Shown here: positions 1-18,483 of the stretch, in pieces | Numbering within the stretch: the stretch's first letter is position 1 | How the letters are laid out: every line of letters starts with the position of its first letter | Virus record (IMG/VR): IMGVR_UViG_3300030382_003905 | Coordinates: 1 to 64,000 of that record | Origin: a virus | Length of the DNA stretch: 64,000 bases | Reading direction: 5' to 3' (one strand) | Made by a program: the position numbers and the translations under genes | Notes under the pieces: model-generated | Told to the model about the DNA's origin: nothing | The model's input: the letters and a program-made list of their open reading frames with translations, nothing else | Database searches by the model: none

Positions 1-1
1 G

Positions 2-1279
2 CATATTAATTACTATACCAACAATACTGTTGAGATGCTTAAAAAAGAATCCCAAAAAATTTCTAAAAGAAAACTATTAGACGTAGCTACAATATCAGTT
101 AATAATGATAAGGTCTTAGGAAAGATTATAGCTGATGCATATAAGAAGGTGGGTAAAGATGGGGTGGTGACTGTTGAGCGTTCTCAAACAGCCGAGACTT
201 ATGCAGAGGTAACTAACGGGATTAAAATAAATAGAGGATATACTTCTAATCTATTTATTAATAATCAAAAAAAGGATGAGTGTATTATGGAAGATGTGAA
301 CATCTTGGTATGTGATAGTGAGATAAGCAATATACTTCAATTAGAAAATATATTAAAACACATAATCAATAAAGGAGAAAAATTATTAATAATAGGAACA
401 TGTACCACTAATGTTATAAATACCCTTGCTGCAAATGTGGTGAGAAATGGATTAAAGTTTTGTAATATCCTACCTCCCCAGTTTGGTTATAAGCAGCACG
501 AGTTAATGCAAGACATAGCTTTGGCAGTAGGTGCTAAATATTATTCTGAAAAGACTGGAGATGATTTAAGTCTTATGACTCCTCATGATTTAGGGAGAGC
601 TGATAAGATTATTGTAGGACAAGATACCACGGTTGTAATTAAAGAAGGAGAAATTAGCCAGGAAATAAAACAGCGTATAAGCGAATTAAAGGAGCAACAA
701 GAAAATACTAAAGATCCTGTATCAAAAAACTTTATAAATGAACGAGTAGCGAGCTTAGCAGGAGGAATCGGGTGCATTTATGTGGGAGGAAACTCTGATG
801 TAGAACAAAAAGAAAAATTTGACCGAGTCGATGACTCGGTATGCGCGGTACGCAGCGCCTTACAAGAAGGCATTGTTCCAGGCGGAGGGTTAGCCTTATA
901 TAAATTAGCTGATGAGCATTGGGTAGATTGCGGATGTGGGCAGGAGGCAAACGCTAATGCAGATAAAAACCAAGAAGCCGCCTTATCTATTTTGTCTGAT
1001 GCGCTAAAAGCCCCTCTATATCAAATACTACTAAATGCAGGATTGGATGTGGGAGAGATTATGTCTTTTGAAGGGATAGATCGTGAAACATTTAAGGCTG
1101 ATAACTTAGGGTATGATGTAAAAAATGAAAAATATGGTGATATGTTAAAGATGGGGATAATTGATCCTGTAAAAGTTACACGACATGCATTGATTAACGC
1201 AATTAGTGTAGCTACCACAATCTTAAGTACTAACGCTATAGTGACACACGCAAGAAAACATGAAGAAAAGGAAGCTTAA
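2..1279 (+). CDS. groEL: GroEL-like chaperonin, 5' end outside window
   Basis: This is a group I chaperonin subunit that would form the ATP-driven folding ring. The reading frame is open from base 2, so the first ATG at 35 is not the true start and roughly the first 130 residues lie outside the window. The visible part covers the end of the intermediate domain, the whole apical domain (RGYTSNLFINNQ region) and the C-terminal equatorial domain. The segment VDDSVCAVRSAL followed by GIVPGGG aligns with the bacterial GroEL region holding the ATPase aspartate (Asp398 in E. coli), so the catalytic residue is kept. The Gly-Gly-Met tail of bacterial GroEL is missing; the protein ends in a short charged tail. 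It is followed by a 45-residue ORF and a GroES gene, so it forms a chaperonin operon. Phage-encoded GroEL is known but uncommon. Identity is firm; the need for it in virion folding is inferred. Confidence 0.95.
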   Translation, partial: HINYYTNNTVEMLKKESQKISKRKLLDVATISVNNDKVLGKIIADAYKKVGKDGVVTVERSQTAETYAEVTNGIKINRGYTSNLFINNQKKDECIMEDVNILVCDSEISNILQLENILKHIINKGEKLLIIGTCTTNVINTLAANVVRNGLKFCNILPPQFGYKQHELMQDIALAVGAKYYSEKTGDDLSLMTPHDLGRADKIIVGQDTTVVIKEGEISQEIKQRISELKEQQENTKDPVSKNFINERVASLAGGIGCIYVGGNSDVEQKEKFDRVDDSVCAVRSALQEGIVPGGGLALYKLADEHWVDCGCGQEANANADKNQEAALSILSDALKAPLYQILLNAGLDVGEIMSFEGIDRETFKADNLGYDVKNEKYGDMLKMGIIDPVKVTRHALINAISVATTILSTNAIVTHARKHEEKEA

Positions 1280-1398: not shown

Positions 1399-1656
1399 AT
1401 GCAACCCATTGGAAAATATATAGCCTTAATTCCTATAGAAGAAGAGTTAAAAACAAAATCAGGCATCCTATTATCAGCTCAAGATGTAGATGAGTTTAGG
1501 TATAAAAAAGGAAAAATTATAAAACCTGGCAGTGATGTGCAGGTTATAAAAGAAAAAGACTTAGTTTATTATGATCGTAATGCTGGACATACGATGCTTA
1601 TAGAAAATGAACAAGTTACTATTATTCAAGAGAGAGACGTCGTTGTTGTTTTATAA
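1399..1656 (+). CDS. groES: GroES-like co-chaperonin
   Basis: This 85-residue protein has the layout of a Cpn10 co-chaperonin. It opens with a short IGKYIALIPIEEE strand like the GroES PLHDRVIVK strand. A KTKSGILL stretch stands where the mobile loop that contacts GroEL lies. A KKGKIIKPGSD strand follows, then a GroES-like end (EQVTIIQERDVVVVL, compare EEVLIMSESDILAIV). It is slightly shorter than bacterial GroES (about 95 residues), with a shortened roof region. It would cap the GroEL ring encoded just upstream. Its last 35 bases overlap the 3' end of the convergent minus-strand gene. Confidence 0.9.
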   Translation: MQPIGKYIALIPIEEELKTKSGILLSAQDVDEFRYKKGKIIKPGSDVQVIKEKDLVYYDRNAGHTMLIENEQVTIIQERDVVVVL

Positions 1657-2059
1657 AATTATTCATATCTACAATTTTTTGCCGATAAACTTTATCCATA
1701 TAACTAACATTTACTTTAAATAAAGGATTAACAGCAGGATGTTCTCCAATTATATCTCCATTTAATTTTTTATATATAGTATTGACGGCCATTTTAGCCT
1801 TATAGGTTAATTCATAAAGAGTAGCGTGTCTTCCCCTGCGTCTTCTCCACACATGTATCCATCCATCTCTAAGCAAAGAGTTAAACCGATTTATATCCCA
1901 AGACATCACTTCTTCAAAGTCTTTGAATTTAGTTTTGTTAAAGTATTCTTCGCTGTAAAGGAAAAACAGCATGTCTAAATCTGGTGTAGTTAACCCATAT
2001 TTAGCCTTTGCCCAATATCGGACTACTCGCCAATATTTTAAATAGTTGTAGGTAGGCAT
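1622..2059 (-). CDS. Putative winged-helix DNA-binding regulator
   Basis: This 145-residue basic protein is the only leftward gene in the left part of the window. Predicted helices in the first half (YWRVVRYWAKAKYGLTTPDLDMLFFLYSE), then a WDINRFNSLLRDGWIHVWRRRRGR segment and ELTYKAKMAVNTIYKKL, follow the helix / recognition helix / basic wing / helix order of MarR-type winged helices. No catalytic motif is visible. It is transcribed away from the long late operon, and its start lies 39 bp from a 20-bp dyad containing head-on promoter boxes. That arrangement is typical of a regulator controlling its own and a divergent promoter. The fold call is by pattern only, without a profile search. Confidence 0.55.
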   Translation of the reverse strand: MPTYNYLKYWRVVRYWAKAKYGLTTPDLDMLFFLYSEEYFNKTKFKDFEEVMSWDINRFNSLLRDGWIHVWRRRRGRHATLYELTYKAKMAVNTIYKKLNGDIIGEHPAVNPLFKVNVSYMDKVYRQKIVDMNNFIKQQRRLSLE

Positions 2060-2085: not shown

Positions 2086-2093
2086 TATCTTTG
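2086..2093 (+). promoter_or_regulatory. Bacteroidota -7 box for rightward late region
   Basis: TATCTTTG followed by T matches the Bacteroidota -7 consensus TAnnTTTG. It lies 22 bases before the first ATG of the rightward gene series (2116). A TTG stands 16 bases upstream, a little closer than the usual spacing of about 19. It forms the left half of a dyad with the minus-strand box at 2098-2105. Confidence 0.7.
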
Positions 2094-2097
2094 TCTA

Positions 2098-2105
2098 CAA
2101 ATATA
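2098..2105 (-). promoter_or_regulatory. Head-on -7 box for the winged-helix gene
   Basis: On the minus strand this reads TATATTTG followed by T, again matching TAnnTTTG. It points left toward the gene starting at 2059. With the plus-strand box at 2086-2093 it makes a 20-bp inverted repeat with 9 of 10 half-site positions matching. Polymerase bound at one box would block the other. No clear -33 TTG is seen at the usual distance. Confidence 0.5.
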
Positions 2106-2115
2106 ACAAGAAATT

Positions 2116-2226
2116 ATGAAAGGATATAATTCAAACAGGATGAGTTCTGGAGCTGGAAGAAGGACTCAGAGAAAACAACTCCAAGAAGGTGGTAGACTTC
2201 AAGAAGGAAGGAAACAAATAAAATGA
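2116..2226 (+). CDS. 36-aa basic Gly/Gln/Arg-rich peptide
   Basis: This is the first ORF after the 2086 promoter, with an ATG start. Its TGA stop overlaps the next ATG (ATGA). The peptide is rich in Arg, Gln and Gly with no hydrophobic segment. I do not recognise it. The good promoter distance and coupled stop/start support translation. Confidence 0.55.
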   Translation: MKGYNSNRMSSGAGRRTQRKQLQEGGRLQEGRKQIK

Positions 2227-2408
2227 AAGAAAAAATTATAAAATTTGTAAAAGATGCTTGGACAGAAGTTAAGCGTAGAGTTAAAAACGTAAATGAAGAG
2301 CTTAAAGATGTAGGTAAAGCTGTTAAAAAAGTGGTTAATCAAATAGATGATGTAGGTGATGCTTTAGTTGGAGAAAAAAGAAAAGGTAGAAAAAATAATA
2401 AAAAATGA
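2223..2408 (+). CDS. 61-aa Lys-rich hypothetical protein
   Basis: This is a small basic protein with an amphipathic helical pattern (KIIKFVKDAWTEVKRRVKNV) and a Lys/Arg/Asn-rich tail. It overlaps the genes before and after it by four bases each. No family is recognised. It belongs to a run of very basic small proteins whose charge would suit binding to DNA or acidic partners, but that is a composition argument only. Confidence 0.65.
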   Translation: MKEKIIKFVKDAWTEVKRRVKNVNEELKDVGKAVKKVVNQIDDVGDALVGEKRKGRKNNKK

Positions 2409-2689
2409 TGGCAGACAAGGTTACAAGAAAATTAAACGCGATAAAAAGAAAAACAAGGAAGATTAAAAAGGCTAATAAGTTAATTCAATCTGAATCGGCT
2501 AAATTAAGAAAGAGGCTTGGGGATAAAAAATATGAAGACCTAAGAACAGGAAATGTTAAATTAGGACTTCAAGACTCTAAGACAGTACAAAGAATAAACA
2601 GAGCATATGAAGCGGTTGGTAGAAAAAAGAAAGCTATTAAACGAAAACTTAGTAAAATAGGAATGCTCAATTATCAAGGCGATAAATAA
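2405..2689 (+). CDS. 94-aa Lys/Arg-rich helical protein
   Basis: This strongly basic, probably all-helical protein has dense Lys/Arg clusters at the N-terminus (KLNAIKRKTRKIKKANKL) and near the C-terminus (GRKKKAIKRKL). There are two adjacent Met codons at the start; the second (2408) is also possible. No catalytic motif, signal peptide or membrane span is seen. Function unknown; condensing or coating DNA inside the head would fit the charge but is not shown. Confidence 0.65.
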   Translation: MMADKVTRKLNAIKRKTRKIKKANKLIQSESAKLRKRLGDKKYEDLRTGNVKLGLQDSKTVQRINRAYEAVGRKKKAIKRKLSKIGMLNYQGDK

Positions 2690-2736: not shown

Positions 2737-2937
2737 ATGGCACAAGGTTATAACGCAAGACTTGACGAATCATTAGGAGCAAGACATAAAGGTAAACATT
2801 CACAATCTCTTAAAGACAGAAGAGACGAAAGTAAAGCTATGTCTAAAAAACTATATGGTCACGCTTATGGCGCAGACGAGTCTATGTCTTACAGACATGC
2901 TTCTTCATGGAGAAGACATGATCATTTAAAAAAATAA
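2737..2937 (+). CDS. 66-aa His/Lys-rich hypothetical protein
   Basis: This is a small polar protein with many His, Arg, Lys and Ser residues and almost no aliphatic core, probably disordered or nucleic-acid associated. Segments such as LGARHKGKHSQSLKDRRDES and MSYRHASSWRRHDHLKK show the composition. I do not recognise it. It has its own upstream promoter-like box and is followed three bases later by another small basic gene. Confidence 0.65.
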   Translation: MAQGYNARLDESLGARHKGKHSQSLKDRRDESKAMSKKLYGHAYGADESMSYRHASSWRRHDHLKK

Positions 2938-3487: not shown

Positions 3488-3676
3488 ATGAAAAGAACGC
3501 CTGTAATTGAATTAAATAAACAACAATCCAGGGGCTTAGGAGATACAATAGAGAAGTTCACCTCAGTAACTGGTATTAAAAAAGCTGTAGAAACAGTTGC
3601 AAAAGTAACTAACAGTGACTGCGGCTGCAAAAAAAGAAGAGACAATCTAAATGAATTGTTTCCATATGATAAATAA
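3488..3676 (+). CDS. 62-aa protein with CGC motif and FPY end
   Basis: This small protein has the pattern GDTIEKFTSVTGIKKAV, then DCGCKKRRDNLNELFPYDK. The Cys-Gly-Cys, basic pair and terminal LFPY form a conserved-looking signature that I recall from small proteins of phages infecting Bacteroidota, where no function is assigned. There is no signal peptide or membrane span. It lies between the basic small proteins and the first virion-type gene. Confidence 0.7.
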   Translation: MKRTPVIELNKQQSRGLGDTIEKFTSVTGIKKAVETVAKVTNSDCGCKKRRDNLNELFPYDK

Positions 3677-3706
3677 AAGAGATTTTTAACCCTCAAAAAC
3701 AAAAAA

Positions 3707-4240
3707 ATGGCATACCCAAAAATAACCGTCAATACTGGTTTAGTAGTAAGCTTAATAGCCAGTGACACAATCCCAATCCCAGCACCAGATTTACCTCAAA
3801 TAACAGGAACAACAACAACTACCACTACTGATAAATTAGTAGATACCTCAGAAGACTTTAGCAATGTTCAAGTGGGAGATATTGTCTATAACACAACAGA
3901 CAACACCTCCGCTACTGTAGTTGCTGTAGACAGTGATACAATATTAGAGGTAAGTGCAGACATCTTTACTTCTTCTGAAGATTATATAATTTTCTTAGGA
4001 GGACCTAATGGATCTGCAAGAATTAATTCAGCTGAAGGCTGTTTGCTTTACGTAGGAAGTAGCGATGCAACTATGGATATTGCAAAAGCATACGTAGATG
4101 TAAAAGTAAAAACTACCGCAGGCAGCATCGTTACATTTAGCAACTTCCCTGTAGGCGAGTATTTACCTGTTCAAGTAGTTCAGCTTTATGCAACTGGAAC
4201 TGACACCGCAGCAGATAATAACTGTTTAGCAATTTGGTAA
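3707..4240 (+). CDS. Virion-type beta-rich protein
   Basis: This 177-residue Thr/Val/Asp-rich protein has the composition of phage surface or decoration proteins. Residues 42-97 form a module (VGDIVYNTT, then SATVVAVDSDTILEVSADIF, then YIIF) that recurs in the connector-type protein at 27703 and the 1695-residue tail protein at 29580. The C-terminal part is beta-rich and resembles domains that pack on capsids or tails. No enzyme motif is seen. It probably is a structural or head-decoration protein; the exact site is unknown. Confidence 0.6.
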   Translation: MAYPKITVNTGLVVSLIASDTIPIPAPDLPQITGTTTTTTTDKLVDTSEDFSNVQVGDIVYNTTDNTSATVVAVDSDTILEVSADIFTSSEDYIIFLGGPNGSARINSAEGCLLYVGSSDATMDIAKAYVDVKVKTTAGSIVTFSNFPVGEYLPVQVVQLYATGTDTAADNNCLAIW

Positions 4241-7192: not shown

Positions 7193-7930
7193 ATGGCAAG
7201 AATTAGTACCTATGTAAATCAAGATGTTGTCCAGGCGGATGATAAATGGATTGGAACAGATGCGCGTTTTTTAAATGCAACAAAAAACTTTACTGCTCAG
7301 TCAGTAGCGGATTTTTTAAACTTAGATGCCAGGATTGAATTAGATGTTCCTCGGTTTTATTACCAAATAATAGACGCAAATATTCCAGGGCAAACAGTAA
7401 GAAACTCAGGAAGTATTACTTTTGACCCTCCGCAAGATTCGCTTGTAGCTTTTAATACGGTTGCAACCTTTAGATTAAGCAAAGCTCAAATAGGACACCC
7501 TACTGTAAATATATCTTCATGGTACAGCTCACCATTAGTTGGTTCTTCGGTTATAATCTCTAAATGCTCCGATATATCTCAGTGGGGTATATTCTCCTGG
7601 GTTTCCTCAACACAAAACGGGGTTGATGCTAATTTTTATGACATCGTTGTTGCTCATACGGCAAGCAATGGCGGCTTCGAACATAATGAAGATTATTTTA
7701 TATCTTTGTTGGACTATGGAACGAATGTTCCTGGAGACAAAAATTATGTAGCAAACCTCACTCCAGCTAATGCAGTATTTGTGGTTAATCATAACTTAAA
7801 CAAATATCCCGCAGTCTCCACAATAGATACGGGAGATATAGCGGTAGAGTGTAATGTGCAGTATAACAGCTTAAATCAATGTACGTTGACGTTTAATGAT
7901 CAATTTACTGGAAAAGCATTTTTTAATTAG
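7193..7930 (+). CDS. Tail-fibre-type structural protein
   Basis: This 245-residue beta-rich protein starts with an adaptor-like segment (ISTYVNQDVVQADDKWIGTD, then TKNFTAQSVADFLN) similar in layout to residues 1-45 of the protein at 17164. The C-terminal 60 residues (AVFVVNHNLNKYPAV and following) match in pattern the end of the next gene product (NEIDVTHTLGQDVIVQVVD), a small domain common at the ends of phage fibre proteins. It is probably a fibre or adaptor subunit of the tail. No enzyme motif is seen. Confidence 0.65.
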   Translation: MARISTYVNQDVVQADDKWIGTDARFLNATKNFTAQSVADFLNLDARIELDVPRFYYQIIDANIPGQTVRNSGSITFDPPQDSLVAFNTVATFRLSKAQIGHPTVNISSWYSSPLVGSSVIISKCSDISQWGIFSWVSSTQNGVDANFYDIVVAHTASNGGFEHNEDYFISLLDYGTNVPGDKNYVANLTPANAVFVVNHNLNKYPAVSTIDTGDIAVECNVQYNSLNQCTLTFNDQFTGKAFFN

Positions 7931-17686: not shown

Positions 17687-17905
17687 ATGGACATAAGAAA
17701 AATCTCTGTCGGAGCAGACTATAAGTCTGGAGCGATGCATTATATAGTAGGGCAAGAAGTTTTAGGAGGCAACCATAAAATACACCTTATTCAGCAAGAA
17801 AGTCAAGCATTTAAAATTTGGATTATAAAAGGAGAAGAAGTGCTACTTTGGAAAGAATTTAAAACAACAATGCCTGTTTCGTTAGAATATAATATAAATT
17901 TTTAA
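17687..17905 (+). CDS. 72-aa conserved-type phage protein, function unknown
   Basis: This small protein has a strand-rich pattern (MHYIVGQEVLGGNHKIHLIQ, FKIWIIKGEEVLLWKEF). The N-terminal DIRKISVGADYKSGAMHYIV looks like a conserved phage family I have seen without a function. It overlaps the next gene by one base (TAATG). It sits immediately upstream of the GroES-like gene and terminase, so a role in packaging or assembly is possible. Confidence 0.65.
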   Translation: MDIRKISVGADYKSGAMHYIVGQEVLGGNHKIHLIQQESQAFKIWIIKGEEVLLWKEFKTTMPVSLEYNINF

Positions 17906-18483
17906 TGCAATCTCCATATTCTTTTATTGTTACACCTGTTAACAATAGGCGGTATGCAAATATAAAAAAAATAGGAGGTGTTGATTTTTTTACCAGCACT
18001 TCTGAAGAAGACCATACTGCTTCTAACCGATACGCTACTGTAGTATCATTACCAATTAATTATAAAGGGGAAATTAAAAAAGGAGATATTCTTTTAGTCC
18101 ATCATAATGTGTTTAAGTTTTATAATGATATGTATGGGCGAAGAAAAAGCGGTAAAAGTTTTTTTAAAGATGATTTGTTTTTTGTTGACTATGATCAGTT
18201 TTTTTTATATCAGCACAACAATGTTTGGAAGGCTCATGATAAATATTGCTTTGTCAAACCTATAAAGATAAAAGAAAAATTTTTAAATTCTGGCAGCACG
18301 GAAGAGCCTTTAATGGGCACTATAAAATATATAAATAACCAGCTTTTAAAAATGGGATTAAAAGAAGGGGACGAGGTAAGTTTTCAGCCTGAATCAGAGT
18401 ATGAGTTTAAAGTGGAAGGAGAAAAGCTTTATAGAATGTTTACTAACAATATAACTTTAAATTTTGGACAACACAAAGCTTAA
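17905..18483 (+). CDS. Divergent GroES-like protein
   Basis: This 192-residue protein looks like an expanded Cpn10 fold. The N-terminal half reads PYSFIVTPVNNRRY, then a loop with IGGV, then RYATVVSLPINY and IKKGDILLVHHNVF. It follows the order of GroES strands: an opening strand, a mobile-loop-like insertion, a second strand, and a GD-hydrophobic strand. The C-terminal half repeats the idea (YCFVKPIKIKE, MGTIKYIN, KEGDEVSFQPES, EKLYRMFTNNITL). It is distinct from the canonical GroES at 1399. It lies just upstream of terminase, so it may be a dedicated assembly co-chaperonin, as phage gp31-type proteins are. No profile search was possible. Confidence 0.5.
   Translation: MQSPYSFIVTPVNNRRYANIKKIGGVDFFTSTSEEDHTASNRYATVVSLPINYKGEIKKGDILLVHHNVFKFYNDMYGRRKSGKSFFKDDLFFVDYDQFFLYQHNNVWKAHDKYCFVKPIKIKEKFLNSGSTEEPLMGTIKYINNQLLKMGLKEGDEVSFQPESEYEFKVEGEKLYRMFTNNITLNFGQHKA

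Follow-up and report, generated by a model that had tools for sequence, protein, structure and literature searches.

The 20-bp element at positions 2086 to 2105 of the analyzed window (the whole stretch of 64,000 nucleotides taken from IMG/VR record IMGVR_UViG_3300030382_003905) probably represents the shared core of a conserved bidirectional promoter, as judged from its sequence and that of its relatives, in which two host-type -7 boxes face each other. Direct reading of the element gives TATCTTTGTCTACAAATATA, i.e., TATCTTTGT-CT-ACAAATATA, an imperfect dyad in which a 4-bp gap separates TTTG from CAAA. The plus half is TATCTTTGT, while the minus half, read as the reverse complement of positions 2097 to 2105, is TATATTTGT. 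The original prediction of two opposed -7 boxes around two central bases (CT) is borne out, as both the plus box, TATCTTTG (positions 2086 to 2093, structural-gene side), and the minus box, TATATTTG (positions 2098 to 2105, minus strand, directed toward the MarR-like gene), fit the TAHHTTTG consensus (PMC6847099). The accompanying count of 9 matching half-site positions out of 10 was incorrect, the agreement being 8 of 9, or 8 of 10 when the central bases are included.

Flavobacterium sigma-A promoters combine a -7 element of the form TAHHTTTG or TAnnTTTG with a weak -33 element (PMC6847099, PMC9723704); the -7 consensus measured in Flavobacterium johnsoniae, TAHHTTTG, occupies positions -12 to -5, with a weak -33 element and a mean leader length of 33 nt (PMC6847099). 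By this measure, transcription is predicted to start at approximately position 2098 on the plus strand and 2093 on the minus strand, 5 bp apart, with each start coinciding with the last base of the opposite box. The predicted leaders, comprising 18 nt to the ATG at position 2116 (plus) and approximately 34 nt to the ATG at position 2059 (minus), accord with the F. johnsoniae mean. With regard to the -33 element, a TTG is located 16 bp upstream of the plus box and the nearest TTTG on the minus side is located 26 bp upstream of its box, an element which is, according to the same source, weak in F. johnsoniae also. A second, tandem plus-strand -7-like box, TAAATTTG (positions 2078 to 2085), which was overlooked in the original prediction, lies directly upstream of the plus box and is retained in relatives only together with the leader ACAAATTTA. 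The exact sequence TANNTTTGTNNACAAANNTA occurs once in the 68,398-bp record, and one strict facing pair with a gap of 0 to 10 bp was observed in the window against 0.18 expected from first-order surrogates, so that the single case is only suggestive. The possibility that the dyad acts as a terminator or forms an RNA hairpin was considered and dropped, since the predicted starts lie inside the dyad and neither transcript would contain both arms.

The source record (approximately 68 kb) has ends which overlap as in a circular genome, and the phage is of a marine, Flavobacteria-type nature. A plus-strand run encodes the terminase, portal, and virion proteins, and a minus-strand run from approximately 49 kb encodes helicase, primase-like, exonuclease, and Erf-like functions. 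The 145-amino-acid MarR-like winged-helix protein (positions 1622 to 2059, minus strand) is encoded by a minus-strand island between groEL-groES and the plus-strand run. GroEL (positions 35 to 1279, plus strand; Pfam PF00118, 3.5e-34; phrog_5725, 9e-96) has its 5′ part at the opposite end of the circular record; the gene starts near the record's end (L018:7926-8399) and resumes at window positions 1 to 1279, and the final bases of L018 repeat the opening bases of the window. GroES (positions 1399 to 1656, plus strand; Pfam PF00166, 1.4e-8) is convergent with the MarR-like gene, the stop ends of the two genes overlapping tail to tail by 35 bp (positions 1622 to 1656), and overlapping matches recur in relatives. 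A second GroES-like open reading frame (ORF) of 192 amino acids (phrog_13932, 4.6e-21) is located at positions 17905 to 18483, just before the terminase gene and far from groEL-groES.

The plus transcript would begin with a 36-codon ORF (positions 2116 to 2226), which overlaps the next ATG and has a relative in L001 (78%), followed in the same run by two more small basic ORFs identified by ORF reading (positions 2223 to 2689, plus strand). The next plus-strand -7 box, TATATTTG (positions 2704 to 2711), lies 25 bp ahead of the ORF at position 2737, a 66-amino-acid ORF (positions 2737 to 2937, plus strand) with plus-side relatives in approximately 80 of 103 loci; ORFs of 62 and 177 amino acids (positions 3488 to 4240, plus strand) have such relatives in 83 and 76 of the 103 loci, respectively. 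Because intergenic plus boxes at positions 2704, 10149, 16882, 23767, 27242, and 36893, all of the form TAHHTTTGT, precede ORFs by 6 to 40 nt, the plus box of the dyad belongs to a series and is not alone in serving as a promoter of the structural region. Elsewhere in the record, tandem copies of AGGATCCAGGCC are present between the early minus-strand and plus-strand genes (L018:7100-7160), and TATCTTTA, a -7-like box with a final A, is found both before the first early gene (L018:6830-6840, minus strand) and at approximately L018:7347-7354 (plus strand), ahead of a plus-strand ORF at 7371. This placement of TATCTTTA suggests that the phage may be able to use the A-ending -7 form as a promoter.

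The product of the divergent gene matches phrog_17028 (3e-9) as well as a phrog annotated as a transcriptional regulator (2e-4). A Pfam search of the protein returned no MarR match, and a profile search against PDB sequences detected MarR proteins only at E values of 0.029 and worse. Its AlphaFold2 model (pLDDT of 89, from 56 aligned sequences) displays helices at residues 6 to 21 and 120 to 144; the top Foldseek matches belong to the MarR family (probability of 0.97 to 1.00, with E values above 1e-3), and structural comparison using VIA yielded Z scores of up to 9.9 (rmsd of 4.6 over 116 aligned residues). On the basis of this model, the assignment of the protein as a winged helix of the MarR fold with N- and C-terminal dimer helices is well supported, in agreement with the winged-helix-like protein originally proposed. 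Phages of Cellulophaga, Flavobacterium, and Maribacter carry relatives of the protein, as do at least 425 IMG/VR stretches.

Conservation of the element was traced through this protein, as a distant DNA-level search of the region against phage records returned no match. When 88 upstream regions were dereplicated to 42 at less than 85% similarity, the plus box was present in 39 of the 42. Among these 39 relatives, a facing strict TAHHTTTG within 0 to 10 bp was present in 14, and a facing TAHHTTT[GA] in 33, against 1.05 and 3.4 expected, respectively, when the 40 bp past the plus box were shuffled and the box itself was kept in place. Of the 34 dereplicated regions in a second, homology-based sample drawn from clades with a gap of 0 bp, 26 contained the facing pair. 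In all pair-bearing relatives the plus box matches the consensus well, whereas in approximately half of them the minus box has a final A in place of a G that is otherwise nearly invariant. The genes flanking the element are likewise retained, with groEL present in 99 of 103 loci, convergent groES in 98, and the three plus-side ORFs in 76 to 83. The earlier assignment of one box to the presumed late region and the other to the winged-helix gene is thus supported, in that opposed predicted boxes for the structural region and the regulator form a deeply conserved arrangement.

Where the regulator is the second gene of its operon, the facing pair is located upstream of the first gene, at -311 in L077, at -391 in L102, and, as the perfect 16-bp TATCTTTGCAAAGATA, at approximately -383 in the cultured Maribacter phage Panino. 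The annotated divergent genes of Panino overlap each other across this perfect palindrome (L015:5605-5648), and, judging from the sequence, the promoter would be better accommodated by a later ATG for each gene. Clean facing pairs are absent from L026, L103, L105, and L014. In L534 and L538, the boxes stand back to back (CAAAGATA followed by TATATTTG or TATCTTTG) just upstream of the match, from which it appears that the face-to-face layout is not indispensable.

The association with the regulator was also apparent from a scan of IMG/VR that was independent of the protein, in which the pattern TATCTTTG N0-10 CAAAGATA matched at least 120 stretches. Among the 120 matches listed, 27 adjoin a member of the MarR-like family (24 distinct proteins, 20 with a gap of 0 bp) when a wider range for ORF ends is applied (17 at a narrower range, alternative start codons shifting the ORF ends), compared to 0 of 121 for a reversed-pattern control counted at the narrower range. 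Furthermore, of the 23 perfectly symmetric pairs situated at divergent junctions among the IMG/VR matches listed, all but two adjoin this family. The window's own combination, TATATTTG..CAAAGATA, yielded no family members among the 120 matches listed. The family link is therefore strong for the symmetric pair form and absent from the scanned sample for the asymmetric form. The possibility that such pairs represent a general host architecture was dropped, exact TATCTTTG pairs being present at 8 places across 60 genomes from a single host family versus 3 genomes with a control match.

In the proposed mechanism, two sigma-A TAHHTTTG -7 boxes would face each other almost without intervening DNA. 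Polymerase bound at the plus box would initiate at approximately position 2098 and transcribe the small-ORF/structural block, while polymerase bound at the minus box would initiate at approximately position 2093 and transcribe the MarR-like gene. Since both orientations would melt nearly the same stretch, only one could be occupied at once, and on steric grounds occupancy would be mutually exclusive. A bias is probable, with the structural direction strong and the regulator direction weak, because the plus box is a good consensus match and the minus box is degenerate (G to A) in approximately half of the relatives. Strong plus-strand transcription would in turn hold down synthesis of the regulator. 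We infer the start sites, the use of host polymerase, this bias, and the hold-down of the regulator from the arrangement of the boxes; late timing of the structural direction is presumed only from the genes that lie downstream.

The original prediction also regarded the dyad as a symmetric operator. Expressed in full, the palindrome would above all be the site of a MarR-like dimer, which, by covering both -7 boxes, would repress the structural operon as well as its own gene and so act as a late-gene switch. MarR-fold proteins usually bind palindromes of 16 to 20 bp in divergent promoters, and inspection of the region by eye revealed no further conserved palindrome. Distant clades lend this reading some weight, as 9 of 17 pairs with a gap of 0 bp are the perfect palindrome TATCTTTGCAAAGATA, one pair with a gap of 2 bp is symmetric in a different set of letters (TAACTTTG/CAAAGTTA), and box letters in the second sample match slightly more often than when permuted (38 of 52 against 33.6; fraction of 0.03, kinship being ignored). 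An operator in the distant clades with a gap of 0 bp, including Panino, is accordingly possible. At the window locus, however, a fixed symmetric operator is not supported by the sequences compared: the free box letters of the window's clade display no covariation (30 of 66 matching versus 31.2 permuted), the spacing between boxes ranges from 0 to 10 bp among relatives, and the gap changes approximately 20 times on a quick protein tree, a count that depends on which boxes are paired (for L022 and L075, the tree script settled on a less likely pair). The gaps of L060 and L070 are 8 and 3 bp, yet the two proteins share 12 of 13 recognition-helix residues, which is unexpected for a rigid dimer, L060 being readable as having a gap of 8 bp (G-ending box) or 0 bp (A-ending box). 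Such variation does not agree with a rigid dimer operator that extends across both boxes. The original prediction looked to the recurrence of the same dyad in related phages; the exact dyad of the window is shared only with a 94%-identical relative (L001/L019), while both genes are conserved. It is for this reason that the operator reading fails at this locus, where we consider it unlikely, and that the reading as a promoter pair survives.

A more serious alternative is that compaction alone could have produced the layout, both promoters being real and their face-to-face placement being without regulatory meaning; this overlaps with the bidirectional promoter proposed here and denies only the coupling. 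The intergenic region, of approximately 56 bp in the window and by eye also short in relatives, is one in which two promoters can hardly avoid overlapping, a fact which counts against the preferred reading. The free variation of the gap and the back-to-back boxes of two relatives point in the same direction. Compaction does not readily account for the concentration of symmetric divergent-junction pairs beside one protein family among the matches listed, even though compact divergent gene pairs are common in phages, nor for the presence of the pair upstream of operons in which the regulator is not the first gene, and we regard it as a distinct possibility that falls short of an even chance. That the palindrome arose by chance and only the plus promoter is real would be compatible with the far better conservation of the plus box relative to the minus box, and with an expectation of 0.18 strict facing pairs in the window, which is not negligible. 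The recurrence of the facing minus box in relatives, in 33 of 39 against 3.4 expected in the first sample and in 26 of 34 regions of the second, renders this explanation highly improbable.

The bidirectional promoter reading finds parallels in known systems. As in bacterial bidirectional promoters (PMC10268837, PMC12825309), a near-symmetric core is present on both strands and would be usable in either orientation, with one binding event excluding the other, and a regulator gene lies beside a divergent candidate target, as in acrR/acrAB and soxR/soxS. In those promoters, the -10 elements overlap one another and the usual distance between starts is 18 bp (range of 7 to 25) (PMC10268837), whereas in the phage whole TAHHTTTG boxes abut face to face without overlap. 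The predicted start spacing of the phage promoters equals 9 minus the gap (9 to -1 bp), giving 5 bp in the window, below the range of 7 to 25, and 9 bp in relatives with a gap of 0 bp, inside it. In E. coli, none of the five bidirectional promoters tested had enough basal activity for competition, which occurs only when one direction is strongly active (PMC12825309). Both phage boxes resemble the -7 element of Flavobacterium sigma-A promoters, and facing pairs are not described in the available text of the Flavobacterium surveys (PMC6847099, PMC9723704).

The system resembles MarR-family autoregulators in the fold of the protein, in the divergence of its gene from an operon that it possibly controls, and in the palindrome between the genes; it differs from them in that a Pfam sequence match is lacking and the dyad spacing is not conserved, the phage system being known here from sequence and predicted fold. 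The A2b/A2c-A3 region of phi29, with p4, and lambda OR likewise feature close, divergent promoters with a regulator acting between them, and their sites and regulation have been proven experimentally. The layout described here, which is known from sequence, bears a tentative resemblance to these early/late switches. Bidirectional promoters as such are already known; what is new is the abutting geometry tied to one regulator family.

In its most far-reaching form, the finding would mean that, in a widespread group of Bacteroidota phages, polymerase of either orientation melts the DNA at a single palindrome of 16 to 20 bp, which, in the TATCTTTGCAAAGATA clades with a gap of 0 bp if not more widely, also serves as the operator of the MarR-like protein transcribed from it, the structural operon being toggled jointly by regulator binding and polymerase orientation, a doubtful prospect at present. 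With the perfect 16-bp version present in a cultured phage (Panino), both the mapping of starts and the testing of binding are within practical reach. The element would provide a small, conserved two-way promoter, open to experiment and made up of Bacteroidota -7 boxes, in a phylum whose promoter architecture is far less studied than that of E. coli. It also points to a MarR-like regulator, and to a site at which the structural genes may be controlled, in a common group of marine phages for which no description of gene control was found.
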